Part shown: positions 3,514-63,944 of the stretch, piece by piece
Layout: each line of letters starts with the position of its first letter
Numbering within the stretch: position 1 is the stretch's first letter
Source of the DNA: a virus
Strand: one strand, 5' to 3'
Length of the DNA stretch: 64,000 nt
Virus record (IMG/VR): IMGVR_UViG_3300027754_000005
Coordinates: 1 to 64,000 of that record
Position numbers and translations under genes: made by a program
The notes under the pieces: generated by a model
What the model was told of the DNA's origin: nothing
Databases searched by the model: none
The model's input: the letters and a program-made list of their open reading frames with translations, nothing else

Positions 3514-3546
3514 CTACTTATGCAAAATGAAGAGAAAAAACGCCCT
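3514..3546 (-). promoter_or_regulatory. Phage promoter-like element, copy A
   Basis: The minus strand reads AGGGCG (3541-3546), 14 nt, then TTTGCATAAGTAG (3514-3526). The hexamer is an exact consensus match. It lies just past the capsid-unit terminator and about 95 bp before the gene starting at 3420. One of ten copies in the window. Confidence 0.75.
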
Positions 3547-7471: not shown

Positions 7472-7504
7472 CTACTTATGCAAAGAGGCGAAATATTCCG
7501 CCCC
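7472..7504 (-). promoter_or_regulatory. Phage promoter-like element, copy B
   Basis: The minus strand reads GGGGCG (7499-7504), 14 nt, then TTTGCATAAGTAG (7472-7484). It drives the small gene, GroES, scaffold and capsid unit. The spacer carries a GGCG...CGCC hairpin followed by TCTTT, so it may also end transcription from the portal unit. Confidence 0.75.
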
Positions 7505-11544: not shown

Positions 11545-11577
11545 CTACTTATGCAAAATAGCTTGTATGTTCGCCCT
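11545..11577 (-). promoter_or_regulatory. Phage promoter-like element, copy C
   Basis: The minus strand reads AGGGCG (11572-11577), 14 nt, then TTTGCATAAGTAG (11545-11557). The -35-like hexamer overlaps the terminase stop codon. The start codon of the next gene (11536) lies 8 nt beyond the element. Confidence 0.75.
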
Positions 11578-13018
11578 AAACTGCATAGGGGTTATAACGT
11601 TTCTTATTTCGGTCGTCGGCGTAGTCCATATCTCGAGTTGGAAGCAAATCAAGCTGAATCCATCCAGAATCACGCAGGACACGCAATGCTTGGGACAAAA
11701 CGTCCACATAGTCATCGTGCCCGCCAGACTCTGGAAACGAACACACCTGCCGTATAAAGCGTTTTGCCCATGGTGCTACCTCGCCGGGTTTGTCGGGATC
11801 TTCTGGGATGTAGACTTTACCTTTAGCAATTAGCGGTGCAACAATGTTGATACGCTGGACTTTGTCAGCACGCCCTGGGTTATAACCTCGCACAGGAACG
11901 CCAGATCCTTGAAGTTCTTGAATCAGTGAGATACCAGCCGATTTGTCTTCCATGAGGATGAGGTCGGCTTTCCTACCTTTGGCAAACTCATTGTCCGAAC
12001 CATACACCACTTCTTTAAAATCGTTGATCACTTTACGGCGTAGCTCTGGATAACCTAAGTGCTGATCCCATGCATCTAAAAGAATGATTGCCGTGCCAAT
12101 GTCTACCGACTCAAAGATACCGAACACACCGCACGCTGTTGGGTCGTTGGCGGTTTTTTCTGAGGTAGCGGGGTCGTAGCTGGCAATCACATACTCAAGT
12201 ACTGGAGACGGCTTTTTGGCTGGCCATGTTTTAAACCAGCGCCGTTTGACAATACCCGCATCTTCTGGATCCAGAATAGCGCCATAGATCTCTTGCTTAC
12301 CAAGGTCGGTGCCTTCATAGGTTTCAAGCGCTTTAAAGAACGATGACGATAGGTTAGCTCGGTTTTCATAGGAGCTGGCGTTGACCACAAACACATCGCC
12401 ACCAATTTTGCCTTCGTTCAAATCCACGATCAGTTCTCTGGGCTTGGGTGTCGTGGTGATGATCTGCTGAACTCGAGCAATCCGAGGGTCACGCAGACGC
12501 ATGGTGAACTGCGCTTGATCCCATGCGTCGTCCAGATAGTCGAACGCGGCTAACTCGTCATACCAGCCACCATGGAACTGCTTACCACGATAACGCTCTG
12601 GTTCGGAAGCTGGGATGCCTTGGATAATCGAGCCATTCTTAAGCGTAATCTCAAACAACGATTTGTTGTAGGTCTCAATCAATTCTGGCGGGATGATGTT
12701 TAAAAGACCAGAGTCACCTTCAAAGCAGGTTGCCCTAATGTCGTTGGAGGTTGGTGCTGTGACCAACCAACGTGTGCCACTGAACTGGGCTGCACGTTGT
12801 CCAATCCAATTTGAGGCGGTGTAGGTCTTACCAGCGCCCCGCCCCGCCAACATGAGCATAATGTCATACTCGCCGTCCTCGGGCTCACGCTGATGCTTAA
12901 GCGCTTGTACTTCCCAACGGATCTGCCAGAGCGCAAGAGCTAGTTGATCTTTTGGCCAGTGTTGTCGTTTTGCTGCAAAGCTGGCAAGCAGCTTTTCTTG
13001 AATTGCGTTTAATGCCAT
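11576..13018 (-). CDS. terL: Terminase large subunit
   Basis: 480 residues, full length. It has an N-terminal packaging ATPase: Walker A in MLAGRGAGKT (about residues 57-66), an adaptor/Walker B-like GGWYDELAAFD near 150 and TTTPKPRE near 190. The C-terminal RNase H-like nuclease shows three acidic sites: ASYDPATSE, LILMEDKSAG and SGGHDDYVD. It cuts concatemers and drives DNA into the head through the portal. ATG 13016-13018 overlaps the end of the intein-like gene (ATGGCATTAA). The catalytic sites are uninterrupted, so it should be active. The small subunit lies far away at 34230, on the other strand. Confidence 0.93.
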   Translation of the reverse strand: MALNAIQEKLLASFAAKRQHWPKDQLALALWQIRWEVQALKHQREPEDGEYDIMLMLAGRGAGKTYTASNWIGQRAAQFSGTRWLVTAPTSNDIRATCFEGDSGLLNIIPPELIETYNKSLFEITLKNGSIIQGIPASEPERYRGKQFHGGWYDELAAFDYLDDAWDQAQFTMRLRDPRIARVQQIITTTPKPRELIVDLNEGKIGGDVFVVNASSYENRANLSSSFFKALETYEGTDLGKQEIYGAILDPEDAGIVKRRWFKTWPAKKPSPVLEYVIASYDPATSEKTANDPTACGVFGIFESVDIGTAIILLDAWDQHLGYPELRRKVINDFKEVVYGSDNEFAKGRKADLILMEDKSAGISLIQELQGSGVPVRGYNPGRADKVQRINIVAPLIAKGKVYIPEDPDKPGEVAPWAKRFIRQVCSFPESGGHDDYVDVLSQALRVLRDSGWIQLDLLPTRDMDYADDRNKKRYNPYAV

Positions 13019-13986
13019 ATTGGTAGAAATCCCTGACCGACCACAAACGGCGCATCTGTTTCGATGTGTACTGTGGGCGCGGGATCTATTCTCTCCACTT
13101 TAGTTATCATGCGGCGCTTATGACCCTTGATACCCTTTTTGGTTTGTTGCTTGGGGTGCAACTGGATATCGGTCTTAAACGTAAATTGGTGCGTGAGCGA
13201 TGAGCGGTTATCAAACACATAGCTCTTCATTCCCAGCGATTCACAGATCGATTGCAGAGTGATCAGAAACCGCAGGTCACGGGAGAAGACAAGAAACCGA
13301 TCTAGTCGTGCATTGTAGCTCCCTGGTTTCATCGCAACAATTCCCTTGAGAAACTCAATCCGCTGTTCGATACTGCCGAAAGTGTATTCGATTGGCAGTG
13401 TGGTTGGAATGCTGGAATAGCGGGTTAGAAATGAGACGCCAATGGATTGCTTAAATGTAAGGGTGTTTCCTTTTCGATCGGTGTGCCACCCCAAAGCGCG
13501 GATCTTCTTTTGCACTGGGTCAACCCAGTCTGGATCAAAGGTAAAGACCACCTTGCCTTTTTGTTTGGCTGCCCACAATCCCACAATGAATGGTGGCACA
13601 GGATGATCCTCATAGGGAAAATGTATTGGATCGGTGTTTTCAATCGAGAACACATTCCAGCCTCGTTTGTCCCTCAGTCCCTTTTCAAGCAAGTCGTCTG
13701 GTGTGTAATAGCGCTGGATGTAGTGGCGTTTGTATTTACCTTGATGCCGAGATTCTCTCTGGCGGTTTCTAGTGGTGAAGGCTGGAAACCGAGTGTGTTG
13801 GTCGACTTCCAGATAAACTCCATCTTTTAACTGCACATCAAACATCTGGGTTGGGGTGTAGTGCTGAATGGTTTTAATCGGTAGTGGATAGCCATCCCAC
13901 GAAAAGACATAATCTTTTGTAGTTAACTGACCCGCCAGTTTCCAGCCTCCCAATACGGGGACTGGGGTGTTACTTGCTATGCCCAA
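13009..13986 (-). CDS. Free-standing intein-like (Hint plus LAGLIDADG-type) protein, apparently inactivated
   Basis: 325 residues from a TTG start (13984-13986); no ATG is available and a stop lies six codons upstream. Residues 4-60 match the start of Hint/intein domains (NTPVPVLGGWKLAGQL, VFSWDGYPLPIKTI), with DQHTRFPAF as block B. The C-terminus (TKVERIDPAPTVHIETD, FVVGQGFLPIWH) matches intein blocks F and G but stops at His, lacking the Asn and following Cys/Ser/Thr needed to splice. Between them are two LAGLIDADG-like helices (PPFIVGLWAAKQKG and RIEFLKGIVAMKPGSY) where the usual catalytic Asp/Glu are absent. Terminase inteins with this layout are known. Here it is a separate gene overlapping terL by 10 bp. 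I infer loss of splicing and probably of nuclease activity. Confidence 0.75.
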   Translation of the reverse strand: MGIASNTPVPVLGGWKLAGQLTTKDYVFSWDGYPLPIKTIQHYTPTQMFDVQLKDGVYLEVDQHTRFPAFTTRNRQRESRHQGKYKRHYIQRYYTPDDLLEKGLRDKRGWNVFSIENTDPIHFPYEDHPVPPFIVGLWAAKQKGKVVFTFDPDWVDPVQKKIRALGWHTDRKGNTLTFKQSIGVSFLTRYSSIPTTLPIEYTFGSIEQRIEFLKGIVAMKPGSYNARLDRFLVFSRDLRFLITLQSICESLGMKSYVFDNRSSLTHQFTFKTDIQLHPKQQTKKGIKGHKRRMITKVERIDPAPTVHIETDAPFVVGQGFLPIWH

Positions 13987-14260
13987 TGGTATTCTCTTTG
14001 ATTACCCAATTATCTAACCACTGGTTCATAGGTGAGCGGATTCTGTTTTGAATCGTGATGGGTAGCTTTCTCACATCAACAAATTCATTCACACTTAATC
14101 GAAACTTTAAATAATCAAGGGTGCTTTTATCAAAGATACTTGCTGGCACATCAACTGAATCAAAGAAGTCTTTAGAACACAGTAGTACCCTCATGCCTCC
14201 AATCTCCTTGTTGGGCTTTTCAAGGATGCCCTTGATTTGGTAAACATATAACTTAGACAT
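13970..14260 (-). CDS. Small protein of unknown function in terminase unit
   Basis: 96 residues from ATG 14258-14260 (MSKLYVYQIKGILEKP...). I chose this start because ATGTCTAA overlaps the stop of the upstream gene. The longer frame adds a Cys-rich stretch that merely mirrors that gene. The protein is mixed alpha/beta with one Cys and unrecognised. Its 3' end overlaps the TTG start of the intein-like gene by 17 bp, so the three genes are tightly coupled. Confidence 0.6.
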   Translation of the reverse strand: MSKLYVYQIKGILEKPNKEIGGMRVLLCSKDFFDSVDVPASIFDKSTLDYLKFRLSVNEFVDVRKLPITIQNRIRSPMNQWLDNWVIKENTIGHSK

Positions 14261-14489
14261 GAGCTGGCACCATTTTGAACACCCGAGGCAGCTTCCCAGC
14301 TTGCCGTCGTTTTTTACATTTCGCTGCCTTGTCTCGCTCAAGTGCTCGTTGGAACGCTTCTAGACTGAGCCAGCGTTCGCCACGAAAACCATTGGCAAGC
14401 ACATCAGTGCGGTAGTTGTAAAACACCATTCCCTCGTAAACGTCGCCGAGCTTGAATGGTTGTTTTGTTTTGGGATTAAGTCTCTTCAT
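14253..14489 (-). CDS. Small basic protein at head of terminase unit
   Basis: 78 residues from ATG 14487-14489 (MKRLNPKTKQPFKLGDVYEG...). The upstream in-frame extension would run through promoter copy D, so I reject it. The N-terminal half suggests a small beta-barrel (FKLGDVYEGMVFYNYRTD) and the C-terminal half is Lys/Arg rich (RDKAAKCKKRRQAGKLPR), consistent with nucleic-acid binding. Function unknown. The start codon is 4 nt from the promoter element, suggesting a leaderless message. Confidence 0.6.
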   Translation of the reverse strand: MKRLNPKTKQPFKLGDVYEGMVFYNYRTDVLANGFRGERWLSLEAFQRALERDKAAKCKKRRQAGKLPRVFKMVPAHV

Positions 14490-14493
14490 ACAT

Positions 14494-14526
14494 CTACTTA
14501 TGCAAACTCTATACACATGCCGCCCT
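14494..14526 (-). promoter_or_regulatory. Phage promoter-like element, copy D
   Basis: The minus strand reads AGGGCG (14521-14526), 14 nt, then TTTGCATAAGTAG (14494-14506). It is the only copy heading the terminase unit and marks the left border of the strand-switch region. Confidence 0.75.
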
Positions 14527-14604
14527 ACTGTTGCGTTCATCCTAGTTCTATACACTCCCTGTCTCCAGTAAGTCTTTGATTCCAAAGTAGATTCCGCTTT
14601 GAAA

Positions 14605-14745
14605 GACAGGGTATCCATAGAAGACAGGGTCAAAACGCATATTAGGTGTACCTATTTATTTTATTTTTTTAAATTAAAAATAAAAAATAAAGAAATACTA
14701 TGGATACTATGGATACCCTGTCTTTTAAAACAAAAAAGCTATACG
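14605..14745. repeat. AT-rich module flanked by GGATACCCTGTC-type repeats, left copy
   Basis: It contains CCATAGAAGACAGGGT, then AGGTGTACCTA, an A/T tract of about 50 bp, then TACTATGGATACCCTGTCTT. The same components recur in opposite orientation at 24,855-25,025, next to the primase-helicase gene. Confidence 0.6.
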
Positions 14746-15033
14746 GATCAAAAGGTTATAGGAGACAGGGAGTGTATAGAACTAGACAGGGAAGACAGGG
14801 AGTGTATAGAACTCAATGTTGCTTTGAGCCTAGTTCTATACAAGTCTTCTAATAATTTACAAAAAAAAATAAAAAATTACAGAGAAAATTCAACAAGCTT
14901 GCTTTTGGTTGGAGCCTCCCGCGCCCAAGCCGCAGGGAGTCGTAAAAGGTGGTGTGGCGTCAAAACAACACCGCCCAGCCATATTGCAAGGAAACAACCT
15001 GACAATCTGACAACTATGGTGCGGTGCAACATA

Positions 15034-15160
15034 TTGCAACGCAACAATCTGCTACTAGGGTTTACCCCAGGTTGAAGTGAGTGCTTACTTACTTGCTGCA
15101 ACGCAACAATCTGCCAGTCTTCTATATTGTTGCAATGCAACATATTGCAACGCAACAATT
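15034..15160. repeat. TTGCAACGCAACAAT iteron-like repeats
   Basis: Copies begin near 15,034, 15,096 and 15,145, with partial ones at 14,983 and 15,263. The core TTGC-aac-GCAA is an inverted repeat. They are clustered only here, which suggests protein-binding iterons. Confidence 0.55.
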
Positions 15161-15389
15161 AGTCACGCTGATAATGTTAGTAGTTACTAACTTGTCAGGT
15201 TGTCATGCGTGCGTGAGAGCGTGCTAGAGAGTCGGCACAATTTACCAACAATCCGACAATGATGCAATGCAACAATATGGCCTTAGGGTAAACACCTATT
15301 GACAAGGTAATAGTGTTGTATTCCGGCAACTAAGGGTAAACACCTATTGTTTTGCTGCCAGTTTTAATATATTTTGGGGACCAGATCCC

Positions 15390-15459
15390 AGGGTAAACCC
15401 TAACGATCAGAACGCACGCTATGCCATTATCACAACCCTCCTAATACACTTATTCCAAG
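15390..15459. repeat. 70-bp direct repeat, copy 1
   Basis: It matches 16,670-16,739 at 67 of 70 positions. It begins with AGGGTAAACCCTAACGATCA and ends ACACTTATTCCAAG. Both copies flank the Gp88 gene block and lie outside genes. Confidence 0.85.
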
Positions 15460-15640
15460 CAATATTAAAACCGCTATAAACCCTCTTAAAACCCTTTTAA
15501 ATTGATTTGCCTATTTTTTAAGCAATGCATTTATACATTCCGCTGCTAGGGTAAACACCTATATAGATATTGTTGCAAGTGTTTAAAATATATAGTATTA
15601 GGTAAGCAATATCCTAATTAACTAAACTACTGGAGGATGT

Positions 15641-15844
15641 ATGTATTTTGATAGATTTGATATAGCGGAGGCATATTACCTAGCATTTACCCATTGCCAT
15701 AATGGGCAATATTCTAGGGAATATGCAAGATTATGCAAAATGCAACAATATTTTAAACCTAGCATTCTATTAGATTGTGAGTCATTAACAGAAAATGGCA
15801 AGGCAATTTATGACAATGTATGCTCTAAACTATTAGGAAAATAA
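15641..15844 (+). CDS. Small early protein of unknown function
   Basis: 67 residues (MYFDRFDIAEAYYLAFTHCHNGQYSREYARL...), with a GGAGG Shine-Dalgarno 6 nt upstream of ATG 15641. It is helical and aromatic-rich, with Cys at three sites. It is the first gene after the strand switch and lies 3 bp before the Gp88-family gene. An AGGGTAAACACCTAT motif lies about 80 bp upstream. Family not recognised. Confidence 0.65.
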   Translation: MYFDRFDIAEAYYLAFTHCHNGQYSREYARLCKMQQYFKPSILLDCESLTENGKAIYDNVCSKLLGK

Positions 15845-15847
15845 ACC

Positions 15848-16495
15848 ATGCAACAAAAACAATTAATTAAAACCATTAAGCAAGCAATGGAAATTATCGG
15901 AGGGTTATCTGCTCCTAGTAAAATGCCATGCTCTAGCTATTCTATTTCCGCTAAGCGTTGCAATACTGGATCAAAGCTTGCAAAAATAGAGGGTACAGTT
16001 TGCCATAACTGTTATGCATTAAAGGGCAATTATATCCGCTATGCAAAAACTATAGATATCGCTCATGAGCGGAGATATCAAGCTTTATCTAATCCACAAT
16101 GGATTGATGCAATGTCTTTTATTATTAATAAGCAAGCAATGCAATATTTTAGATGGCATGATAGCGGAGATATTCAGTCATTCCAGCATCTATTAAATAT
16201 TGTGAGCGTTGCAGACAATTGCCCTAATACTCAATTTTGGATACCAACAAAGGAAAGTAACCTAGTAAAGCAATATTTAGATACTTTTGGATCATTCCCT
16301 AATAATTTGATTGTGAGAGTATCCGCTACTAAACGAGATAGTAATCCGCCAAAATTTGAGCATACATCTACAGTACATCTAGCTAATAATTCAATTGGCA
16401 CAGAATGCCCTAGTTATAAGCAAGCTGGAAAATGCTTAGATTGTCGCAATTGTTGGGATAAATCAATCCCTAATGTATCTTATAAATACCATTAG
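15848..16495 (+). CDS. Gp88-family Cys-rich protein
   Basis: 215 residues. The N-terminal KMPCSSYSISAKRCNTGSKL...GTVCHNCYALKGNYIRY, the central YFRWHDSGDIQSFQHL and the C-terminal TECPSYKQAGKCLDCRNCWD match the phage 'gene product 88' family as I know it. The Cys clusters at both ends suggest a metal or iron-sulphur site. No biochemical function is established to my knowledge. It is followed by a strong terminator, so with the 67-residue gene it forms a two-gene early unit. Confidence 0.75.
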   Translation: MQQKQLIKTIKQAMEIIGGLSAPSKMPCSSYSISAKRCNTGSKLAKIEGTVCHNCYALKGNYIRYAKTIDIAHERRYQALSNPQWIDAMSFIINKQAMQYFRWHDSGDIQSFQHLLNIVSVADNCPNTQFWIPTKESNLVKQYLDTFGSFPNNLIVRVSATKRDSNPPKFEHTSTVHLANNSIGTECPSYKQAGKCLDCRNCWDKSIPNVSYKYH

Positions 16496-16515
16496 ATCAA
16501 TTCACTATCACAACA

Positions 16516-16540
16516 ACCCGCCACTAGGCGGGTTTTTTTT
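16516..16540 (+). terminator. Rho-independent terminator after the Gp88 gene
   Basis: AACCCGCC-ACTA-GGCGGGTT followed by a run of eight T. It starts 20 bp after the stop codon at 16495. Confidence 0.9.
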
Positions 16541-16947
16541 GATTGTTGCGTAGCAGCCACAAACCAGGGTTAACCCTAATAGACCAGATCCCAAAATTAT
16601 GCTAAGTCTGGCCTAAGGGTAAACCCCTATAGACAAATCAAATTAATTGTGAAATTGACAAATCCGGTAAGGGTAAACCCTAACGATCAGATCGCACGCT
16701 ATGCCACGATCACAACCCTCCTAATACACTTATTCCAAGTGACATCAAAACCCGCCAAAACCCCATTAAATCGATTTTGGAGGGTTTGCCCATAATTGAC
16801 ATTTTGACCCCAGCACAAAACCAGGGTTTACCCTTAAGGGAATGTCCTAATATGAATTTTATACAGAATTGATATTATGGATATGGGGAAATTATATTTT
16901 TTATTTTGACCCCAGCACTTTAAGGGTAAACCCTAATAGGAGAAATT
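16541..16947. other. Intergenic control region with AGGGTAAACCC motifs and second long repeat
   Basis: No gene is seen. It holds motif copies at 16,566, 16,616, 16,670, 16,823 and 16,923, a GACCAGATCCCA repeat shared with 15,379, two copies of TTTTGACCCCAGCAC (16,803 and 16,903), and a hairpin CCAAAA...TTTTGG near 16,755-16,785. The last motif copy is 8 bp before the start region of the next gene, which suits an operator or promoter role. Confidence 0.6.
16670..16739. repeat. 70-bp direct repeat, copy 2
   Basis: Partner of 15,390-15,459, with three mismatches. After it, the two copies diverge at once. Confidence 0.85.
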
Positions 16948-17154
16948 ATGCAACATATTGAATTAAATTTGACAATTCGTCAAGCTGATTTGGTATTGGC
17001 ATCATTACGCAACCAGTTAAGAGAATTAAATCATTCTCTTAATAATGAAGTATTGAGTAGTGCTGAGTCAATCGACATTCAGTCTAGTGCGAATGTAATT
17101 AGATCCACAATGCAAGTATTAAAAGACTTAATTTATAAATCAGAAAGAGAGTAA
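16948..17154 (+). CDS. Small helical early protein
   Basis: 68 residues (MQHIELNLTIRQADLVLASLRNQL...). A beta-like start is followed by two amphipathic helices, which could form a small coiled-coil dimer. There is AGGAGA 6 nt before ATG 16948, directly after an AGGGTAAACCCTAAT motif. First gene of the long run of small genes to 22,255. Function unknown. Confidence 0.65.
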   Translation: MQHIELNLTIRQADLVLASLRNQLRELNHSLNNEVLSSAESIDIQSSANVIRSTMQVLKDLIYKSERE

Positions 17155-17157
17155 AAA

Positions 17158-17397
17158 ATGGAAAATAGATCAATCTCAAGCATTGCGAGAGATATTAAAA
17201 GTGTATGGATTAAACCATATTTCGGAGCAAAACCATATTTAGATGCAATGACTCAATTGCATAGCATCAATGACAAGTTTTATGAAGATAGTGCAAGCTC
17301 AGTAGTAATGTATTTTTTGGCTAATGCCAGCACTTTTAGAGGCAATGATGCCAAGGTATTAAAACTTGAATTAAAAAACTTATTGAAAGGCAATTAA
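17158..17397 (+). CDS. Small early protein of unknown function
   Basis: 79 residues (MENRSISSIARDIKSVWIKPYFGAKPYLDAM...). The pattern SSIARDIKxxWxKPYFGAxPYLxAM resembles a recurrent uncharacterised phage and plasmid family, though I cannot name it. Mostly helical, no cysteine. It starts 3 bp after the preceding stop, so the two are coupled. Confidence 0.65.
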   Translation: MENRSISSIARDIKSVWIKPYFGAKPYLDAMTQLHSINDKFYEDSASSVVMYFLANASTFRGNDAKVLKLELKNLLKGN

Positions 17398-17399
17398 TT

Positions 17400-17579
17400 A
17401 TGACAATGGATAGCTATCAAGCAGTAGGATTGGCAGAGGGTTTTATTGAGGCAGAAAGTGAAGAGCAAGTACTGGAGGCATGGCAGTACTTGCACGACAC
17501 TAGATTGGGTTATGGTTTGCAAGGGTTTTTTGGTCGAACTATTCGACAATTATTAGAAGAGGGTTTAATTAACCCATAG
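17400..17579 (+). CDS. Small acidic early protein
   Basis: 59 residues (MTMDSYQAVGLAEGFIEAES...), from ATG 17400 right behind the preceding TAA. Helical and acidic. The pattern AxGLAEGFIEAxSEEQVLEAWQxL is shared, from memory, with many small phage proteins of unknown function. It ends just before an AGGGTAAACCCCTGG motif. Confidence 0.6.
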   Translation: MTMDSYQAVGLAEGFIEAESEEQVLEAWQYLHDTRLGYGLQGFFGRTIRQLLEEGLINP

Positions 17580-17694
17580 GCAGCCCCATAAGGGTAAACC
17601 CCTGGAATTTAGTTCTAAGGGTTTTCCCTGATTGTGTTGCAGTAAACAGTCAGTAGTATTGAATTGTAGTCAACCAAAACAAAGGAGAATTTTT

Positions 17695-19060: not shown

Positions 19061-19159
19061 AAGTAAATAGGGGTTTACCCTGGGGCCCGGAATCAGGGTA
19101 ACTACCTATGTACTTTTGTTGTAGTACCAGTACAATTGAACTTTTACAAGGGAGGTGGT

Positions 19160-22256: not shown

Positions 22257-22288
22257 GGGTGACCCCCAATCCAATTGGAGATTCCCTA

Positions 22289-22864
22289 TTGAAAACCCGC
22301 AAAAATGCGTTGACTGATTATATGCAGTCGTTGTACAAGATCCCCACGCTGACCCTTGAGGAAGAGGCAAAGCTGGGGATTCTGATCGCTCAAGGTGACG
22401 AGGCAGCCCTCGATAGATTAGTAACTCACAACCTACGCTTTGTAGTTTCAGTCATTAAAAAGATGCCGAACTGGGCGCATTCCAATATGCCCATGGAAGA
22501 CCTTTTATCATTCGGCAACGAGGCTTTGCTCAATGCAGCCCGATCCTGGAAACCGATGGGCAAAATCCGGTTTGCCTCCTATGCCAAGAAATTCATACAC
22601 TTCGATGTCAACCGGGGTGTTGCCAATACCAAGAACATTATTCGACTGCCAGTAAACATTACTGAAGAGATCCGAAGAATCAAATATACCGAGCGCGTGC
22701 TGAGTCAAACCCTCCAGCGTGAGCCGACCGACACAGAACTGGCCGACAGGCTGGGAGTGTCAACCACGCGCATTGCATACATTAATTCCATAATCAGTAA
22801 AGAGCCAGTAAGCTTAGAGATATTTAATTCCGAACATTTAGAACAAGAAGGATACGATGACTGA
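22289..22864 (+). CDS. Truncated sigma-70-family factor (regions 1.2-3, no region 4)
   Basis: 191 residues from TTG 22289, chosen because GGAG lies 8 nt upstream and the -10 box sits just before it. GTG 22259 is an alternative with no Shine-Dalgarno. Region 2 is clear: LVTHNLRFVVSVIKKM, MPMEDLLSFGNEALLNAA and KIRFASYAKKFIHFDVNRGV, the core-binding and -10 recognition parts. A region-3-like helix-turn-helix follows (REPTDTELADRLGVSTTRIA). The protein ends at the beginning of linker 3.2 (EPVSLEIFNSE), so region 4, which reads -35 boxes, is absent. It should direct host RNA polymerase to phage promoters, most likely the TTTGCATAAGTAG elements. That link is inference. Confidence 0.85.
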   Translation: MKTRKNALTDYMQSLYKIPTLTLEEEAKLGILIAQGDEAALDRLVTHNLRFVVSVIKKMPNWAHSNMPMEDLLSFGNEALLNAARSWKPMGKIRFASYAKKFIHFDVNRGVANTKNIIRLPVNITEEIRRIKYTERVLSQTLQREPTDTELADRLGVSTTRIAYINSIISKEPVSLEIFNSEHLEQEGYDD

Positions 22865-23192
22865 AGAACAGATTCGAGCTTATAATAGATTTATTCGTGC
22901 TCGTGATAGAGTCAAACTAGTAAAAACCAAAGAGAACTTTAAAAATGCTTATATTCCTCATCGTGATTTTATTGATAGTATACATATCAATGGATTGAAC
23001 CATCCGCTTTTTGTGGTGAACGATGAGTGGATTGAATACAAAGAGGCATCATCAGCATGGTGGGCGATTGAACCCAGATACCGCCATGAAGAACGCTTAA
23101 GGGCAACCCGAGGCGATTATGGAGATTCAGATAACTGGGATGAACCAAATGAAGTTGAAACATTAGACACTTTCTTCAAGGAGGAGAAATGA
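22857..23192 (+). CDS. Protein of unknown function between sigma factor and methyltransferase
   Basis: 111 residues (MTEEQIRAYNRFIRARDRVK...). Helical and basic N-terminus, aromatic middle (EASSAWWAIEPRYRHEERL), acidic C-terminus. No known motif. It overlaps the sigma gene by 8 nt and the methyltransferase start by ATGA. Confidence 0.6.
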   Translation: MTEEQIRAYNRFIRARDRVKLVKTKENFKNAYIPHRDFIDSIHINGLNHPLFVVNDEWIEYKEASSAWWAIEPRYRHEERLRATRGDYGDSDNWDEPNEVETLDTFFKEEK

Positions 23193-24565
23193 AATACTTA
23201 TCAGTATGCTCTGGAGTTGAGGCTGCCACAGTAGCATGGCATGACTTGGGCTTTGAGCCAGTAGCATTCTCGGAGATTGAAAAATTTCCGAGTGAGGTGT
23301 TGAACTTTCGTTACCCCAATGTACCAAACATGGGTGACATGACTAAATATAAGGAGTGGAAATTAAATGAATCAATCGACCTTCTTGTGGGAGGAACCCC
23401 ATGCCAATCTTTTAGCGTCGCAGGGCTTAGAAAGGGACTCGAAGACCCTCGAGGAAACCTCATGCTCACATATGTTGGAATTCTTGACAAGTTTAGACCC
23501 AAGTGGTGCGTTTGGGAAAACGTGCCAGGTGTCCTCAGTTCCAACGGAGGACGGGATTTTGGTTCCTTCCTCGGGGCGCTGGGCGAACTCGGGTATGGGT
23601 GGGCCTTCCGTGTCCTTGATGCTCAGCACTTTGGAGTACCACAAAGACGCCGCAGAGTCTTCGTTGTTGGATGTCTTGGAGACTGGGTCAGTCCCGCAAA
23701 GGTTCTTTTTGAGCCCGAAAGCTTGCGCCGGAATAATCCGAAGAGCAAAGGTAAGAAACAAAGTGCTCCCGCCTTTACTTCATCAAGCTTTGGAGGCTAC
23801 AGTGAAGGAGTCGGGACAATCCGAGCTGCTGGAGGAGATCTCGGTGGCGGATCAGAAACTCTGATTGCTACACCCGATGGTAACCACACCACTGGCTCAC
23901 TACTTGCCAGAGATTACAAAGGGATTGGAAATCAAGATTTAACCGATGGTCGTGGATTGGTTGTGTATGAAAACCATCCATCGGATTCAAGAGTTAAAGA
24001 GATGGGTGATGTATGTCAAACTGTGACTAGTAGCTGGGGAACTGGTGGTGGCAACATACCATTTGTTCAACCGATTGCGTTAGCTGAGAACACCATTGGT
24101 CGCAAACCATTAAATGGTGGTAATGGAACTGGTTATACCGAAGGTGGACCTATGTACACATTGAACGCTACTGGGGTACATGGTGTTGCAGTTGATATGT
24201 ACAACCTTACATTGAATGACAAGACTACTCAAACCCTTAGAGGTTTTGGACACATTGACCATGTAGGTGGAACTTTTGAGCCCATTGTGTTGGAAGATCA
24301 AGGTGGTAGCGTGATGCGTGTTACCAATAGTGGCGTTGTAGGTACATTGCGCAGAGAATCACATGGGCATGAACCTAGCGTTATACACAACATGGCAGTC
24401 AGAAGGCTTACACCGATTGAATGCGAGCGTTTACAGGGTTTTCCCGATGACTACACTAACATCAAAGCAAAATGTCCCGATGGGCCTCGTTACAAGGCTA
24501 TGGGCAACAGCATGGCAGTACCGGTTATGAAGTGGATTGGACAACGAATAAAGGAAATGTCATGA
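23189..24565 (+). CDS. DNA (cytosine-5) methyltransferase
   Basis: 458 residues. All key C5-MTase motifs are visible: SAM motif I (SVCSGVEAATVAWHDLG, residues 5-21), motif IV GGTPCQSFS with the catalytic Cys (~68-76), motif VI WENVPG (~109-114), motif VIII FGVPQRRRRVFVVG (~149-162) and C-terminal motifs IX-X (RRLTPIECERLQGFPDDY, AMGNSMAVPV). A ~230-residue Gly/Thr-rich stretch (residues ~180-410) forms the target-recognition region and is longer than usual. It methylates cytosine in the phage DNA, probably against host restriction. No cognate restriction gene is nearby. Confidence 0.93.
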   Translation: MKYLSVCSGVEAATVAWHDLGFEPVAFSEIEKFPSEVLNFRYPNVPNMGDMTKYKEWKLNESIDLLVGGTPCQSFSVAGLRKGLEDPRGNLMLTYVGILDKFRPKWCVWENVPGVLSSNGGRDFGSFLGALGELGYGWAFRVLDAQHFGVPQRRRRVFVVGCLGDWVSPAKVLFEPESLRRNNPKSKGKKQSAPAFTSSSFGGYSEGVGTIRAAGGDLGGGSETLIATPDGNHTTGSLLARDYKGIGNQDLTDGRGLVVYENHPSDSRVKEMGDVCQTVTSSWGTGGGNIPFVQPIALAENTIGRKPLNGGNGTGYTEGGPMYTLNATGVHGVAVDMYNLTLNDKTTQTLRGFGHIDHVGGTFEPIVLEDQGGSVMRVTNSGVVGTLRRESHGHEPSVIHNMAVRRLTPIECERLQGFPDDYTNIKAKCPDGPRYKAMGNSMAVPVMKWIGQRIKEMS

Positions 24566-24756
24566 TAGTAATACCATCGGATGTATACGACAAGGATGGC
24601 AATCTATTGAGGATTGAATTTTACAACGAATTGGGTTCGTTTGAGATTCAGTCGTTGTGGGATCCAGCGGATGAACAAACCAGTGAAAACCGAAATGAAT
24701 TTCGAAAATGGAGTTACACCATGGTCAAAAGGCAAAATTATGAAGTGGCTAACTAA
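24562..24756 (+). CDS. Small protein after the methyltransferase
   Basis: 64 residues from ATG 24562 (MIVIPSDVYDKDGNLLRIEF...), overlapping the methyltransferase stop by ATGA. The frame upstream belongs to the methyltransferase shadow. Beta-rich, acidic middle, unknown function. Last gene before the 324-bp non-coding stretch. Confidence 0.55.
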   Translation: MIVIPSDVYDKDGNLLRIEFYNELGSFEIQSLWDPADEQTSENRNEFRKWSYTMVKRQNYEVAN

Positions 24757-24854
24757 ATTGTTGCAGTGCATCCTGTCTACCCTGTCTCTATTGTGGCGCA
24801 TCATAATATGCCAAAAGCACTAGATGTAGTGGTTGACTAGGTGCAAACCTACTG

Positions 24855-25028
24855 GAAATCCATAGAAGACATAGAAGACATAGTAATATTGAATTATTTC
24901 TTTTTAAAATTAAAATAAAATAAAAAGATATAGGGTAAAGTGAGTTAGACCGTGGATACCCTGTCTTCTATGGCGAATCATAACTAAAAGTAATAAGCTA
25001 TATAACTAAAAATTATATAGGTACACCA
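24855..25028. repeat. AT-rich module flanked by GGATACCCTGTC-type repeats, right copy
   Basis: Read on the minus strand it gives GGTGTACCTAT, CCATAGAAGACAGGGTATCC, an A/T tract, and TACTATGTCTTCTATG, the same components as 14,605-14,745. It lies just before the replication primase-helicase gene, so an origin or regulator site is plausible. Confidence 0.55.
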
Positions 25029-25044
25029 CCAAAAGTGCCTATAA

Positions 25045-25057
25045 TTTGCATAAGTAG
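25045..25057 (+). promoter_or_regulatory. Phage promoter-like element, copy G
   Basis: TTTGCATAAGTAG, 23 bp before ATG 25081. Unlike most copies, the hexamer 14 nt upstream (ACCACC) does not match AGGGCG, so this may be a weaker or differently read site. Confidence 0.65.
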
Positions 25058-25080
25058 AAGAGCACAGAAGAGGAAAACAG

Positions 25081-27387
25081 ATGAAGCCGAAGGTCTTACC
25101 AGTATTATTCCAAAATATACCTCTTGCACTACGCACAATCCCACGCTGGACACTGTGGAATTATGTAGAAGTGGGAGAGAATGAAACAAAACGCTGGTCA
25201 AAACTGCCAGTACAACCCTCTGGCAAGGCTGCCAGTTCAACAAACGCATCAACATGGACAGACTTTCATTCTGTCGAGGCAGCATACCTAACCGCCAAGT
25301 TTGATGGCATTGGATTTGTATTTACAAAAGATGACCATATTGTTGGCGTTGATATGGACGATTGCTTTGATGAGCAAACCCTTAAGTTCACCAACCCCAT
25401 GTTAGAGGCGATTGCCAGTAAGATTGATGGTTACATGGAGATCAGCCCATCGGGTACTGGGGTCAAAATATTTACACTGGGCGACATCCCTAGTGCATTT
25501 GTTGACCACAGCATTGGTCTTGAAGTGTACAAAATGGGTCGGTACTTTACTGTTACAGGGCAAAAGATTCGTGGAGAGTTACCAACCGAGTTGCAAGACT
25601 TTACTGACATCATCCCCGAGCGCACAGTACGCTTAACTGGTGATGCCTTTGCTGACTACAACCCACCGCTTGATGGTTGGGACTTAGCTAAAGTTGAAAC
25701 AGAACTACTACCAAACTTTGACCCAACTTACTACACCGATTGGTTGCAAGTGGGGATGTGTTTACATCATCAATTCCAGGGCGACATCGAGGCTTGTGAG
25801 GCATGGGATCGCTGGTCATATGGTGATGGTAGCGTGGAAAGTTATAACAATAATGCGTGCGAGAACAAGTGGAAAACCTTTAGTCAAAAGAGTGGTGGAG
25901 CAACGCTACGCACATTGACTTATAAAATATCATCGAACAAACGCAACGATGCGTTAGCCAAGGGTGATGTGATTCTGTCTGCAGCTCCATTGGAGAATGC
26001 TCAGACTTTTCTAGACTCAAAGTTCTCATCTGAAGAAGGTATCAAGCTAGTGCATTACTCGGGCGATTTTTTTAGTTACCAAGGTACGCACTATTCTGAG
26101 GTTGAAGAGTCAACCATTCGCTCTGAGTTGTATAAGTTTTTAGACAAGTGTAAGAAACAAGATCGCAAAGGTAATATTGTTGCGTTTGCCCCAAATCCAG
26201 CAAGCGTGAGTGGTGCGATGGATGGCATCAAGGCATTGACCCACCTACAGAATCAAGCCAATACACGCCCGCCAGTATGGCTCGATGGTTACAGCGCCAA
26301 TCGTCCCGAGGCGAGTAAACTGGTCAGCGTTAAGAATGGTTTGTTTCACTTAGAAGATAACATCCTACTGCCACACTCATTAGGTTTGTATACACAGAAC
26401 TCATTGCCATTTGCATATGACCCGATGGCGCAATGCCCACTGTGGATGAAGTTCTTAGATGATGTTTGGGGAATGGATCAGCAGTCAATTGATTGCTTGC
26501 AAGAGATGTTTGGATACATATTATCGGGCGATACAGCACAGCAAAAGTTTTTTAACATCATTGGACCACGTCGTTCGGGTAAAGGCACAATCAACAAAAT
26601 CTTAGTGGCGTTGCTTGGGCAACACAATACAGTAGCACCACAACTGGAGGAACTTTGTGATACATTTGGTTTGCAACCTTGGCTGGGTAAGCTCCTCGCT
26701 TCTTTTACTGATGCGAGAGCACCTGAACGAAACAGATCTTCTGTTGTATCTCAGCTTCTGCGGATTGTGGGCGGGGACACTATTACCGTTAACCGTAAGA
26801 ACAAGGAGAGTTGGAATGGTTATTTGCCTACTCGCATTGTTATTTACAGTAACGAGGTTCTTCAATTAACAGAGAACTCTAATGCACTTACTGGTCGTAT
26901 GGTAGTGCTCAAGATGACACACAGTTTTTATAACAAGGAAGATACTAACCTATCAAACAAATTGATGGTTGAATTATCGGGCATTTTTAATTGGGCGATG
27001 GTTGGATTAAGTAGGCGGATTGAGCGTGGTGGGTATTTTGTGCAACCAGACAGTGGTAAAGAATTATTGGAAACCATGGAAGAGATGAGCAATCCAATTG
27101 GTGCGTTTATAGAGCAAGTTATGGAGTATGATCCCGAAGGTGAAGTAGATAAGGATCACGCTTTTATTTGTTATAAGCGTTGGGCAACAAAGCATGGGCT
27201 CAATCCAGGAAATGATCTATCCTTTAAGCGTAGATTCCTTGCATCAACACAAGATAAGAATGTAATATCAAGCGCCATCCGAGTCGATGGTAAACGACAA
27301 CACAAATACTTGGGTATCAAGCTGACAGAAAAAGCTCTGGCCTATGTAGAAAAGCAAGTATACTTTGAGGAAGAGGAAATATTTTGA
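25081..27387 (+). CDS. Primase-helicase (PrimPol-like domain plus SF3/D5-type helicase)
   Basis: 768 residues. The N-terminal domain (1-~190) has PrimPol traits: GVDMDDCFDEQ with metal-binding Asp (~88-98) and EISPSGTGVKIF (~120). Residues ~200-285 resemble a primase C-terminal PriCT-2 domain (WLQVGMCLHHQFQG...AWDRWS). The C-terminal helicase has Walker A GPRRSGKGT (~495-503), LLASFTDARAPERN and IVIYSNEVLQ as B/C motifs, and a D5-type end. It should unwind the origin and synthesise primers, in the same pathway as the polymerase at 39161. AGAGGAAAACAG precedes the ATG. Confidence 0.9.
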   Translation: MKPKVLPVLFQNIPLALRTIPRWTLWNYVEVGENETKRWSKLPVQPSGKAASSTNASTWTDFHSVEAAYLTAKFDGIGFVFTKDDHIVGVDMDDCFDEQTLKFTNPMLEAIASKIDGYMEISPSGTGVKIFTLGDIPSAFVDHSIGLEVYKMGRYFTVTGQKIRGELPTELQDFTDIIPERTVRLTGDAFADYNPPLDGWDLAKVETELLPNFDPTYYTDWLQVGMCLHHQFQGDIEACEAWDRWSYGDGSVESYNNNACENKWKTFSQKSGGATLRTLTYKISSNKRNDALAKGDVILSAAPLENAQTFLDSKFSSEEGIKLVHYSGDFFSYQGTHYSEVEESTIRSELYKFLDKCKKQDRKGNIVAFAPNPASVSGAMDGIKALTHLQNQANTRPPVWLDGYSANRPEASKLVSVKNGLFHLEDNILLPHSLGLYTQNSLPFAYDPMAQCPLWMKFLDDVWGMDQQSIDCLQEMFGYILSGDTAQQKFFNIIGPRRSGKGTINKILVALLGQHNTVAPQLEELCDTFGLQPWLGKLLASFTDARAPERNRSSVVSQLLRIVGGDTITVNRKNKESWNGYLPTRIVIYSNEVLQLTENSNALTGRMVVLKMTHSFYNKEDTNLSNKLMVELSGIFNWAMVGLSRRIERGGYFVQPDSGKELLETMEEMSNPIGAFIEQVMEYDPEGEVDKDHAFICYKRWATKHGLNPGNDLSFKRRFLASTQDKNVISSAIRVDGKRQHKYLGIKLTEKALAYVEKQVYFEEEEIF

Positions 27388-27938
27388 AGAAGAAACTTTA
27401 CCATGTAATTAAAGTGCCAATTTTTCCAGCAAACATTCATGTGTGCTTGGATGAAATGTCATTTAAACAAGCACTGAAAGACAAGAATGTAGTGCAAAAA
27501 GTGGAAATTATGGAAAATGGGGCGATGGCAGAAACCCATTCTGTACCAACAGCCGATGGTAGAACTTTCATTGGTTTATTGCTTGATCTAAATGCAATTG
27601 ATGATTTAGATGCAACACTGGTTCATGAATCTGTACATTTGGTGTATCGTATTTTTGAATACATGTGCGAAGAAACACCCGGTGAAGAAACAAGGGCTTA
27701 TCTTACAGAGTATGTTTATAAAGAAATAAGGAGAGTGTTAGATGAGCCTAGTGTTAGAAAAAGACATAGAGAATTACTTGAACAAAAAAATCAAGCAGTC
27801 ATCGGGGCTCTCATACAAATGGCTGAGCAGCGTGACGGGAGTACCAGATCGGATAGTAATTCTCAACCAAAAGATCCTATTCATAGAACTAAAAACACAG
27901 ACAGGAAAACTGTCACCAAGGCAAGAGCTGGTATTTGA
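27384..27938 (+). CDS. Putative HExxH metal-dependent protein
   Basis: 184 residues from TTG 27384, which overlaps the primase stop; no ATG is near. Around residue 75 is DATLVHESVHLVYRIFEY, an HExxH zinc-peptidase-like motif, followed by EETRAYLTEYVYKEI. From residue ~120 the frame runs through the first 197 bp of the VRR-NUC gene in another frame. That tail is polar and low complexity (RTKNTDRKTVTKARAGI). The domain is recognisable, but the substrate is unknown and the catalytic claim rests on a short motif. Confidence 0.6.
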   Translation: MKKKLYHVIKVPIFPANIHVCLDEMSFKQALKDKNVVQKVEIMENGAMAETHSVPTADGRTFIGLLLDLNAIDDLDATLVHESVHLVYRIFEYMCEETPGEETRAYLTEYVYKEIRRVLDEPSVRKRHRELLEQKNQAVIGALIQMAEQRDGSTRSDSNSQPKDPIHRTKNTDRKTVTKARAGI

Positions 27939-28026
27939 TGAACTGGGCGAAGCTGGATTTCCAGTTCATGTGTTGCGCTCTAAAGAAGATGTTGATGACT
28001 TTATAATAGAGGCGACCCGTGGCTAG
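27742..28026 (+). CDS. VRR-NUC family nuclease
   Basis: 94 residues. The compact PD-(D/E)XK layout is visible: GLSYKWLSSVTGVPDRIVIL (Asp), ILFIELKTQTGKLSPRQ (ELK) and a final VHVLRSKEDVDDF helix. Stand-alone VRR-NUC proteins cleave branched DNA and are often encoded beside SNF2-type helicases in phages, as here (28392). A Holliday-junction or fork-processing role is likely. It overlaps the HNH-like gene by 8 bp. Confidence 0.85.
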   Translation: MSLVLEKDIENYLNKKIKQSSGLSYKWLSSVTGVPDRIVILNQKILFIELKTQTGKLSPRQELVFDELGEAGFPVHVLRSKEDVDDFIIEATRG

Positions 28027-28828
28027 AAAAGAAGTGTATCACAATGAAAAAAAATACAGACAAACAAAACGTGGTCATATTAGTAGAGCAATGGGTGCGG
28101 CATCAACTCGAGCAAGAAATGAATGTTTAGATTTTGATTTGGATTTAGATTATTTGGAATTGATTGCAACTGATTTTTGCCCAGTTTTTGGAACGCCATT
28201 TAACTGGGGTCAAGGAGAAAAAGTAAACGATTGGTCTCCGTCGTTAGATAAAATTATTCCAGAATTTGGGTACATCAAACACAATGTTATATTTATCAGT
28301 ATGCTTGCTAATAAAATAAAGCAAGATGTTACTGAGAATGAAATTTATTTGGTAGGCGACTGGTTACACGAAGAAAGAAAGAAGACTTTAGATGCTCTCA
28401 AAAGATCAGCTCCACCCGTACCAATTGAACATGTTGTCATTAGCAAAGCAAATTCCGCATATCGGCTTATTTATGGAACCCGGACTTGGGAAGACCGCTA
28501 CGGCGCTGACTATAATCAAGGAGAGCAAACCTGGGAAGACCTTGGTAGTTGCCCCGAAGCGAGTGGCAGAAACAGTATGGTCACAGGAATGTGGCAAATG
28601 GGAACACTTGAAATCTTTTACAGTGGCAAAGGTTATCGGTACGCCAGCGCAACGGGAATTAGCACTGAAGAGCTCCAGCGACTTATATATTATAAACTTA
28701 GAGAACTTGGTTTGGCTATTGGATCAAAATCCAAAATTCGATTATCTGATAATAGACGAGAGCAGTCGGTTCAAGGATCCCTCGACCAAGAGATTCAAAG
28801 CCCTCAAAAAGCATTTGAAGGGTTTTAA
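28019..28828 (+). CDS. HNH/endonuclease VII-like protein with long out-of-frame C-terminal extension
   Basis: 269 residues. Starts GTG (28019). Residues ~50-125 (DFCPVFGTPFNW, SPSLDKIIPEFGYIKHNVIFIS, LANKIKQDVTENE) resemble a phage HNH-like family whose usual form is C...SLDRIDP..GYV.GNV..IS..AN.IK. Such proteins normally end near here. This one lacks a stop and continues ~145 residues through the start of the helicase gene in another frame, with no recognisable fold. Either a native stop was lost or the two genes truly share 437 bp. The conserved zinc Cys pairs of classical HNH proteins are largely absent (one Cys seen). Confidence 0.65.
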   Translation: MARKEVYHNEKKYRQTKRGHISRAMGAASTRARNECLDFDLDLDYLELIATDFCPVFGTPFNWGQGEKVNDWSPSLDKIIPEFGYIKHNVIFISMLANKIKQDVTENEIYLVGDWLHEERKKTLDALKRSAPPVPIEHVVISKANSAYRLIYGTRTWEDRYGADYNQGEQTWEDLGSCPEASGRNSMVTGMWQMGTLEIFYSGKGYRYASATGISTEELQRLIYYKLRELGLAIGSKSKIRLSDNRREQSVQGSLDQEIQSPQKAFEGF

Positions 28829-29720
28829 AAGGCGTATAATACTCACTGGTACACCCACCCCTCAAGGGATGGCTGATCTCTGGTCACAGGTAGGTATATT
28901 GGACTTAGGTGAGCGTTTGGAAAGCAGTCTTACTCGGTTTCGTGATAAATATATGAACCCAGGGCAACGTAATCGGCACACTGGGGTAATTTACAATTGG
29001 ATATTAAAAGATGGTGCGGATAAAAGTATTACAGATAAGATTTCAGATATATGTTATTCGCTTAAGGCTGAAGATTATCTGCAGTTGCCTACGCTTACGA
29101 CGCTATTTCATAATGTGGAATTAGATAAACCTATACGAGCAAAGTATAATGAACTTAGAAAAAACATGGTCGCTGAAATCGGTAAAGAACAGATCACAGC
29201 TCCAACAGCAGCGACATTGGCGGGGAAATTGCTCCAGTTTACATCGGGCGCTGTTTATGCCGAAAATGGAAAAGCGCAAGAGATACACCGCGCTAAATTG
29301 GAATATCTTGAGTCGATCATGGAAGAGTCTTCCTCCCCTACGCTGGTCTTCTACCACTTCAAACACTCGCTCCAACGGATACGTCTTCAATTCCCGCAAG
29401 CTGTGGTGCTGGACGATGACAACATTGCAGCGTGGCGTCGTGGCGAGATTCGTATGCTCCTTGCCCATCCCCAGAGTGGGGGAATCGGGCTCAATCTACA
29501 GTGCAACATTGGAGAGACAGCCCAAACGGTGTGGTTCGATCTACCATGGAGTTCAGAAAACTACATCCAGGCTAACGCTCGGATCTATCGCCAAGGGCAA
29601 GAAAAACCGGTTATTATACACCATTTAGTGGTGTCCAATAGCATTGATGGGCATGTAGTAAATGTATTAAATGGCAAAATAACAATTCAAGATGCTTTAA
29701 TGGATGCTTTAAATACATGA
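28392..29720 (+). CDS. SNF2-type DEXD/H helicase
   Basis: 442 residues. Motifs in order: Q-like LHPYQLNML (7-15), Walker A EPGLGKTATAL (29-39), Walker B DESSRFKDPSTKRF (~120), motif III LTGTPTPQGMADLW (~150), and helicase C-terminal motifs LVFYHF, HPQSGGIGLNLQ and ARIYRQGQEKPV (~396). It is the minimal phage form of SNF2/RapA-like translocases and probably acts with VRR-NUC in recombination-dependent replication. The start lies inside the HNH-like ORF. It overlaps the next gene by ATGA. Confidence 0.92.
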   Translation: MLSKDQLHPYQLNMLSLAKQIPHIGLFMEPGLGKTATALTIIKESKPGKTLVVAPKRVAETVWSQECGKWEHLKSFTVAKVIGTPAQRELALKSSSDLYIINLENLVWLLDQNPKFDYLIIDESSRFKDPSTKRFKALKKHLKGFKRRIILTGTPTPQGMADLWSQVGILDLGERLESSLTRFRDKYMNPGQRNRHTGVIYNWILKDGADKSITDKISDICYSLKAEDYLQLPTLTTLFHNVELDKPIRAKYNELRKNMVAEIGKEQITAPTAATLAGKLLQFTSGAVYAENGKAQEIHRAKLEYLESIMEESSSPTLVFYHFKHSLQRIRLQFPQAVVLDDDNIAAWRRGEIRMLLAHPQSGGIGLNLQCNIGETAQTVWFDLPWSSENYIQANARIYRQGQEKPVIIHHLVVSNSIDGHVVNVLNGKITIQDALMDALNT

Positions 29721-30016
29721 GAATAATAATAAATTGTAGTAAACCTCGTTTATCAGATGAAGAGGTAGATCCTTTAGAATTGGATGACATTGATGCATTT
29801 GCTGGACATTTAGACAGTGGGTGGTTACCCTGGGATTTAGATGACTTAATTGATATTGAGCGTATTATAGCGGAGCGTATGCCCAAAAAACAAAAATATG
29901 TTATTGAAGCATTTTTAACAGGTAGAACTTATTTAGATATAGGCGTTACTGAAAAACACTGGCGGTATCATTATGACAAAGCAATAGATTTTATTAAAGA
30001 GGAATTGAAATTATGA
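29717..30016 (+). CDS. Sigma region 4-like small protein
   Basis: 99 residues. The acidic first half (RLSDEEVDPLELDDIDAFAG) precedes IIAERMPKKQKYVIEAFLTG then RTYLDIGVTEKHWRYHYDKAIDF, which has the spacing of sigma-70 region 4 or ArpU/RinA-type helix-turn-helix (P..Q..VI..FL.G.SY.DIG.T..HV..H...A). It is the only such domain in the window and is physically separate from the sigma gene at 22289, which lacks region 4. A partner role, like T4 gp33 with gp55, is an attractive inference; a free transcription activator is the alternative. Confidence 0.6.
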   Translation: MRIIINCSKPRLSDEEVDPLELDDIDAFAGHLDSGWLPWDLDDLIDIERIIAERMPKKQKYVIEAFLTGRTYLDIGVTEKHWRYHYDKAIDFIKEELKL

Positions 30017-33029: not shown

Positions 33030-33207
33030 AATTGCAATATCATTCTTTATTGGCTTTATGGTCGGTCTTGTTATGCGCCCAAAAGACCCCGAGTTGAAAC
33101 AGCAAATTGAGATATCCAACCGTAACTATCAGAAATATGAAGAAGAACTGAAATATTATAAAGATTTATGTAAATGGCATGCTGATCAAAAAAGGGCGGA
33201 TTCTTAA
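33022..33207 (+). CDS. Small membrane protein with coiled-coil tail
   Basis: 61 residues from ATG 33022. Residues ~4-20 (AISFFIGFMVGLVM) form one transmembrane helix, followed by a charged coiled coil (QIEISNRNYQKYEEELKYYK). N-in or N-out cannot be decided. It is encoded in the replication region rather than the lysis cluster, so it may tether something to the membrane. Its end overlaps the -35-like hexamer of promoter copy H. Confidence 0.6.
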   Translation: MTEIAISFFIGFMVGLVMRPKDPELKQQIEISNRNYQKYEEELKYYKDLCKWHADQKRADS

Positions 33208-33225
33208 AGTTTTTTGCATAAGTAG
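33193..33225 (+). promoter_or_regulatory. Phage promoter-like element, copy H
   Basis: AGGGCG (33193-33198), 14 nt, TTTGCATAAGTAG (33213-33225): an exact match on the plus strand. It heads the unit 33357-34619, which includes the small terminase. Confidence 0.78.
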
Positions 33226-34647: not shown

Positions 34648-34676
34648 GGGCTAGGTATAAAAACCTAGCCCATTTT
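34648..34676 (+). terminator. Terminator after small terminase, fused to promoter I
   Basis: GGGCTAGGT-ATAAAA-ACCTAGCCC with an ATTTT tail. The tail Ts are also the first bases of the TTTGCATAAGTAG element, so end and start of transcription are fused. Confidence 0.88.
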
Positions 34677-34686
34677 GCATAAGTAG
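34674..34686 (+). promoter_or_regulatory. Phage promoter-like element, copy I
   Basis: TTTGCATAAGTAG, 41 bp before ATG 34728. The hexamer at the usual distance (GGTATA) matches AGGGCG poorly because that place is used by the terminator stem. Confidence 0.72.
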
Positions 34687-57211: not shown

Positions 57212-57244
57212 CTACTTATGCAAAAAAGGAGCAATTTATGCCCC
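57212..57244 (-). promoter_or_regulatory. Phage promoter-like element, copy E
   Basis: The minus strand reads GGGGCA (57239-57244), 14 nt, TTTGCATAAGTAG (57212-57224). It heads the adaptor and tail-hub unit. Confidence 0.75.
57222..57244 (-). terminator. Terminator of lysis unit overlapping promoter E
   Basis: The minus strand reads GGGGCA-TAAAT-TGCTCC-TTTTTT, a 6-bp stem (one G-T pair) plus T run. The stem is also the -35-like hexamer and spacer of promoter E, and the T run leads into TTTGCATAAGTAG. Confidence 0.65.
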
Positions 57245-63911: not shown

Positions 63912-63944
63912 CTACTTATGCAAAAAACGCTTAAAAAACTGCCT
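63912..63944 (-). promoter_or_regulatory. Phage promoter-like element, copy F
   Basis: The minus strand reads AGGCAG (63939-63944, 4 of 6 match), 14 nt, TTTGCATAAGTAG (63912-63924). It lies directly after the stop of the previous gene and heads the glycosyltransferase, fibre and lysis unit. Confidence 0.7.

Follow-up and report, generated by a model that had tools for sequence, protein, structure and literature searches.

The window analysed here (64,000 nucleotides, positions 1 to 64,000, covering most of the 67,829-base phage record IMGVR_UViG_3300027754_000005) carries two genes whose products may together constitute a sigma factor:

22289..22864, plus strand: truncated sigma factor of 191 amino acids, containing regions 1.2, 2 and 3 and the start of region 3.2, without region 4
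29717..30016, plus strand: region-4-like protein of 99 amino acids (hereafter 29717), an acidic, disordered N-terminal third followed by a predicted four-helix sigma4-like domain at residues 37-99

Such a two-piece sigma factor appears to serve many freshwater bacterial viruses, which form a large group, with one piece that reads the core promoter of the replication genes and a second that is probably added to read an extra GGGCG box found almost only before virion genes. A sequence-only reading of the window had proposed, with T4 as its model, either that the two proteins rebuild a sigma factor reading both boxes of AGGGCG-N14-TTTGCATAAGTAG, or that the truncated sigma reads TTTGCATAAGTAG alone.

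The sigma open reading frame (ORF) is open from a GTG at 22259, and the 191-residue version starts at the TTG at 22289, just 3' of a Shine-Dalgarno-like GGAG; both TTG and GGAG are retained in relatives. Sigma-70 regions 1.2, 2 and 3 all score above the Pfam cut-offs, while region 4 is absent from this chain by Pfam and is likewise missing from 45/45 relatives. Alignment to Thermus SigA in the PDB (E 4e-23) ends at EPVSLE, the motif that opens region 3.2, after which a short acidic tail runs to the stop, 15 residues beyond EPVSL. The same end recurs in independent metagenome contigs, and upon wider sampling the stop fell 13-15 residues after EPxSx in 45/45 distinct sigma ORFs; the truncation is therefore neither an assembly break nor a frameshift. 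It is real, and the sequence-only description of a sigma factor ending just after region 3 was correct. The sigma factor of Escherichia coli uses two tryptophans and one glutamine to open and recognise the beginning of the -10 element. All three are replaced in the aligned window sigma, which would be compatible with an altered -10 element. A Dcm-type cytosine methyltransferase gene (23189-24565) lies close behind the sigma gene.

The ORF at 29717-30016 is real and conserved, and its product is predicted to carry a region-4-like four-helix domain with a helix-turn-helix. In an AlphaFold model built on the profile of the first 12 members, residues 37-99 reach predicted local distance difference test (pLDDT) values of 88-95, with helices at 41-53, 57-67, 72-75 and 79-97, and residues 1-36 are disordered and acid-rich. 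When this model was compared with the PDB by Foldseek, the twelve best folds were all sigma factors or isolated region-4 domains, including 3hug, 3vep, 5fgm (1.9 A) and 6jhe (template modelling score 0.72 of target). In a viral library, the sole strong match was a phage relative with 41% identity, followed by phage sigma factors. Sequence comparison gave graded results. As a single query, 29717 matched no family and no PDB sequence; profile searches of PDB sequences returned nothing but unrelated weak matches; searches of the genome with PF04545 and PF08281 found no match; and hhalign with the shallow 12-sequence profile did not rise above shuffles. With a diverse 29-member profile, hhalign against a six-sequence E. 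coli region-4 profile gave a colinear alignment at E 6.7e-4 (0/200 column shuffles). Sigma-70 models made up 8/14 of the NCBIfam families touched by the region-4 proteins and were the commonest weak matches (best E 0.0045), and Pfam r4_2 matched 5/29 members (best E 0.022), in both cases below curated cut-offs. Structure prediction, which the sequence-only reading had named as a means of refuting itself, thus gave a region-4-like fold, and its sketch of a helix-turn-helix protein with little else gains a disordered acidic N-terminal third. On one contig a second, divergent paralogue of the region-4 protein (L143:890-1204) is 33% identical to 29717. In Caulobacter phage RLK, the gene that follows the SNF2 helicase was considered as a homologue and rejected, as it is syntenic only and its product does not look region-4-like by eye.

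The two genes travel together. A truncated sigma gene is present, 7.1-9.8 kb away and on the same strand, at 25/26 region-4 loci with at least 9 kb of upstream sequence, and a region-4 gene is present at 11/11 sigma loci with enough sequence downstream, such that the overall distance is 7-10 kb at testable loci. The sigma2 and sigma4 parts are in this sense separate proteins, from separate genes, of one system.

The element TTTGCATAAGTAG consists of TTTG, the -10 hexamer CATAAG and TAG, and has the form of an extended -10/discriminator element. There are nine exact copies in the window, and seven copies of AGGGCG-N14-TTTGCATAAGTAG within three mismatches (0 expected); 15 related contigs hold 47 exact copies of TTTGCATAAGTAG, versus 0 of the reversed pattern. 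The promoter sites in the window are as follows:

25045..25057, plus strand: middle-type (box-less) element TTTGCATAAGTAG, before the primase operon, which contains 29717
34674..34686, plus strand: middle-type (box-less) element, before exonuclease, single-stranded DNA-binding protein, ribonucleotide reductase and polA genes
33193..33225, plus strand: late-type promoter AGGGCG-N14-TTTGCATAAGTAG, upstream of the terminase small subunit
3514..3546, minus strand: late-type promoter, after the major head protein gene
7472..7504, minus strand: late-type promoter with GGGGCG box, before GroES-like and head genes
11545..11577, minus strand: late-type promoter, before pre-portal and portal genes
14494..14526, minus strand: late-type promoter, before the terminase large subunit
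57212..57244, minus strand: late-type promoter with GGGGCA box, before the virion-side genes at 55-57 kb
63912..63944, minus strand: late-type promoter with degenerate box AGGCAG, before glycosyltransferase-like and tail-side genes

The bipartite arrangement in the sequence-only reading holds at the virion-gene copies and fails at 25045 and 34674; what that reading missed is that there are two promoter classes. Within the window's own clade, an AGGGCG-like box (at least 4/6) lies 14 nt upstream of TTTG at 29/29 virion-side sites, whereas 22/22 replication-side sites lack one. Twelve further contigs were added, two of which share the window's element while the rest have their own repeated element; the elements of other clades are TTTG-CATTAG, TTTG-CATTAT, TTTG-TATTAT, TTTG-CATTAA, TTTG-TATATA and TTGCG-TATTAG. 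When sites were pooled from 13 phage genomes or groups, among which the extended -10 element takes seven forms, and aligned on the hexamer, AGGGCG (at least 5/6) stood exactly 18 bp upstream of it at 72/80 virion-gene (late) sites and 0/64 replication-gene (middle) sites, and at any other spacer at 3 sites at most. The 18-bp spacer holds even in the clade with one extra base in its element, and the hexamer is therefore the right anchor. Four bases of the box are almost invariant, and hexamer positions 2-3 are a fixed A and T across elements. Behind the box promoters lie genes for terminase, portal, head, tail and the like. AGGGCG with a hexamer at 18 bp has the geometry of a -35/-10 promoter. 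The TTTG-hexamer-TA block covers the positions that are read by sigma regions 3.0, 2 and 1.2, and these are the regions that the truncated sigma keeps.

Each class has further features of its own. At late sites, 12-16 nt after the hexamer start and near the expected start site, a nearly invariant TA is followed by GG or GA (TATAGGA), less so in middle promoters. The middle promoters at 25045 and 34674, and orthologous sites, have palindromes upstream (TATAACTAAAAGTTATA; TTTCTCACATTATGAAA), and several exonuclease and polA promoters abut a terminator-like hairpin, the T-run of which doubles as the TTTT of the promoter.

Covariation suggests which protein reads which element. Element distance correlates with distance in sigma regions 2.3-3.0 (Mantel r 0.76, p 0.0002) more strongly than with distance in the whole sigma (r 0.55) or in the region-4 protein (r 0.43). 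Across the group, the region-4 protein is best conserved in its predicted recognition helix, with a mean distance of 0.14 versus 0.42 in its other helices. The box and recognition helix are constant, then, while the -10 element varies with sigma regions 2.3-3.0. The placement of elements suggests in turn an order of expression. No phage promoter element was found in the 400 nt upstream of the sigma gene in the relatives examined, and among 12 contigs no element had the sigma gene directly downstream. A box-less element directly precedes the region-4 gene in seven contigs (G016, G020, G021, G022, G034, G035 and L049), and in the window this gene belongs to the operon that the box-less primase promoter heads. 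A scan of the early region for sigma-70-like promoters performed no better than on shuffles.

Element positions relative to the sigma, region-4 and virion genes therefore point to the action of host sigma, then of the truncated sigma alone, and then of both phage proteins. We consider it probable that a phage sigma factor is here encoded as two polypeptides made at different times, so that host sigma gives way to truncated sigma, and this to truncated sigma plus region-4 protein. As the sigma gene has no phage element in front of it, transcription of the early genes, among them that of the truncated sigma at 22289, would fall to host RNA polymerase carrying the host's own sigma. The truncated sigma, with its regions 1.2-2-3, would bind host core and open promoters with TTTGCATAAGTAG alone, namely those of the replication operons and of the operon of the region-4 protein. 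In a third step 29717 would join the holoenzyme at the beta flap, standing in for the sigma domain 4 that is missing, and would read AGGGCG as a -35 element 18 bp upstream of the hexamer, whereupon the virion-gene promoters would open. Both alternatives of the sequence-only reading find a place in this scheme: the joint reading of both boxes fits the late class, and the reading of the 13-mer by sigma alone fits the middle class. Its split-sigma idea draws support from the predicted region-4-like fold, co-occurrence of the genes, the conserved truncation, the 18-bp -35/-10 geometry, and a -10 element that varies with sigma against a constant box. We also lean, with little better than even confidence, towards a more general form of staged sigma assembly, in which region 4 supplied in trans turns an extended -10-only (middle) holoenzyme into a -35/-10 (late) holoenzyme. 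One added domain would then be the middle-to-late switch throughout a widespread freshwater phage group, in which the -10 half evolves with sigma and the -35 half is fixed.

Several points weigh against staged assembly. The AlphaFold alignment for 29717 was shallow (12 sequences), the Foldseek E-values against the PDB were weak (at least 0.9) though consistently ranked, and the helix-turn-helix is about 4 residues shorter than in canonical region 4; it is the helix preceding the recognition helix that is shortened, and the domain is therefore region-4-like, not a textbook region 4. The Mantel test leaves phylogeny in, and sites counted in phages that are related to one another do not amount to independent observations. 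Retrieval bias contributes to the constancy of the recognition helix, as part of this helix served as the retrieval pattern when a C-terminal sub-alignment was searched against IMG/VR (438 matching stretches, 80 kept); loci retrieved via sigma (L176, L180, L183 and L190) also retain the helix. Late sites scoring below 5/6 for AGGGCG number 8/80, several of them at the terminase large subunit, where the box is weak or absent in three contigs, and five lysin sites lack the box (G021:452, G022:37327, G033:32400, G034:32830 and G035:3904). Lysin would on that basis be a middle gene; in T7, lysozyme is a class II gene. Lastly, the analysis is wholly computational, with temporal classes and timing taken from gene function and content, and we infer the pairing of 29717, rather than of another protein, with AGGGCG.

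That last pairing is where the best-surviving alternative departs, which we regard as unlikely. The truncated sigma might read the 13-mer everywhere and AGGGCG be the operator of a different phage activator, with 29717 serving another role, in which it might block or remodel host sigma. T4 is known to have MotA-like activators, which bind near -30 (PMC11598898), many small phage ORFs are without assigned function, and binding of AGGGCG by 29717 is putative. Yet 29717 has a predicted region-4-like fold and is linked to the truncated sigma at nearly all testable loci, and the box, at an unvarying 18 bp from the hexamer, occupies exactly the position that sigma region 4 would reach. Less probable still, we consider it rather doubtful that 29717 acts in the manner of T4 gp33, binding the beta flap as a coactivator that reads no specific bases, while AGGGCG is read by another factor or through DNA shape. 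Like sigma region 4, the gp33 protein clamps the flap tip helix, and alone it does not bind DNA (PMC7892883); the shortened helix-turn-helix would suit such a role. Against this, no part of 29717 is better conserved than the putative recognition helix, and four bases of the box hardly vary. It seems very improbable that the elements have nothing to do with the phage sigma and serve instead as promoters for host holoenzyme or for a single-subunit RNA polymerase of the phage: the 13-mer is long and strictly conserved, with TATAG(G/A) after it at many late sites, but neither the window's genome nor six group phages contain a match to the T7-type RNA_pol family (T7 positive control 1e-109), and the element, which combines TTTG with a -10-like hexamer (A and T fixed at positions 2-3), varies with sigma regions 2.3-3.0 and has a box in the -35 position at 18 bp as its partner.

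Staged assembly has partial counterparts among known systems. In Bacillus subtilis, SigO-RsoA (YvrI-YvrHa) is a two-subunit sigma, whose sigma4-like and sigma2-like domains reside on separate proteins that jointly initiate at specific promoters (PMC8103513). The two parts are likewise on separate proteins here; SigO-RsoA, however, is cellular and both of its parts serve the same promoters, whereas these are phage genes 7-10 kb apart and the longer sigma piece (1.2-2-3) would act alone at one promoter class. In phage phiEco32, gp36 is a sigma without region 4 that reads single-element promoters, and the small protein gp79 activates gp36-dependent transcription (PMC8948821), again pairing a phage sigma that lacks region 4 with a separate small phage protein; its promoters, in contrast, have neither a -35 element nor a late-only box. 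By hhalign, gp36 and gp79 showed no similarity to the present proteins, and gp79 was ruled out as a relative. T4 also has a -10-only phage sigma without region 4, gp55 (acting with gp33 and gp45), and a separate flap-binding protein that stands in for region 4, but gp33 is structurally unrelated to sigma region 4 (PMC7892883), whereas 29717 is predicted to be region-4-like, and a conserved box stands at the -35 position here. The T4 pair is accordingly a poorer model than the sequence-only reading had supposed, and SigO-RsoA and phiEco32 gp36 are nearer. The gp47 of phage 7-11 reads late promoters that also have two elements at a fixed spacer (PMC8948821), with the difference that region 4 is in the same chain. 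Phage regulators of the DUF1492 type, themselves region-4-like, have predicted folds in BFVD similar to 29717 (weak matches), and no sequence family link to them was found. In the literature library searched, we found no report of a split phage sigma; what is new relative to these systems is that a box carried by one promoter class only is tied to a region-4-like domain supplied in trans.

Transcription research has long asked whether sigma domains can work as separable modules with separate timing, and T4, phiEco32 and SigO-RsoA each give part of the answer. The present group offers natural replicates, in which a single -35-type box is combined with seven -10-type elements and with sigma and region-4 proteins to match, so that purified host core and two small proteins would suffice to test the question. 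Since sequence alone suffices to recognise the elements, promoter maps are gained as well for these widespread, uncultivated freshwater phages, for which phage and genome collections yielded neither an isolate nor a host.

Other features of the window lie apart from this system. In the early control region at 14981-17604 (and at 19068) there are 9 copies of AGGGTWWACMCCTA versus 0.12 expected, and a palindrome, TTGTTGCAAYGCAACAA, is clustered at 14981-15275; together these are candidate origin or operator sequences. The terminase large subunit at 11576-14633 is spread over more than one ORF, of which that at 13009-13986 looks intein-like by eye (LGIASNTPVPVLGG...). A long tail-side protein with GISGYSG repeats is encoded at 59560-61194 in the window and at 63000-67829 of the record.

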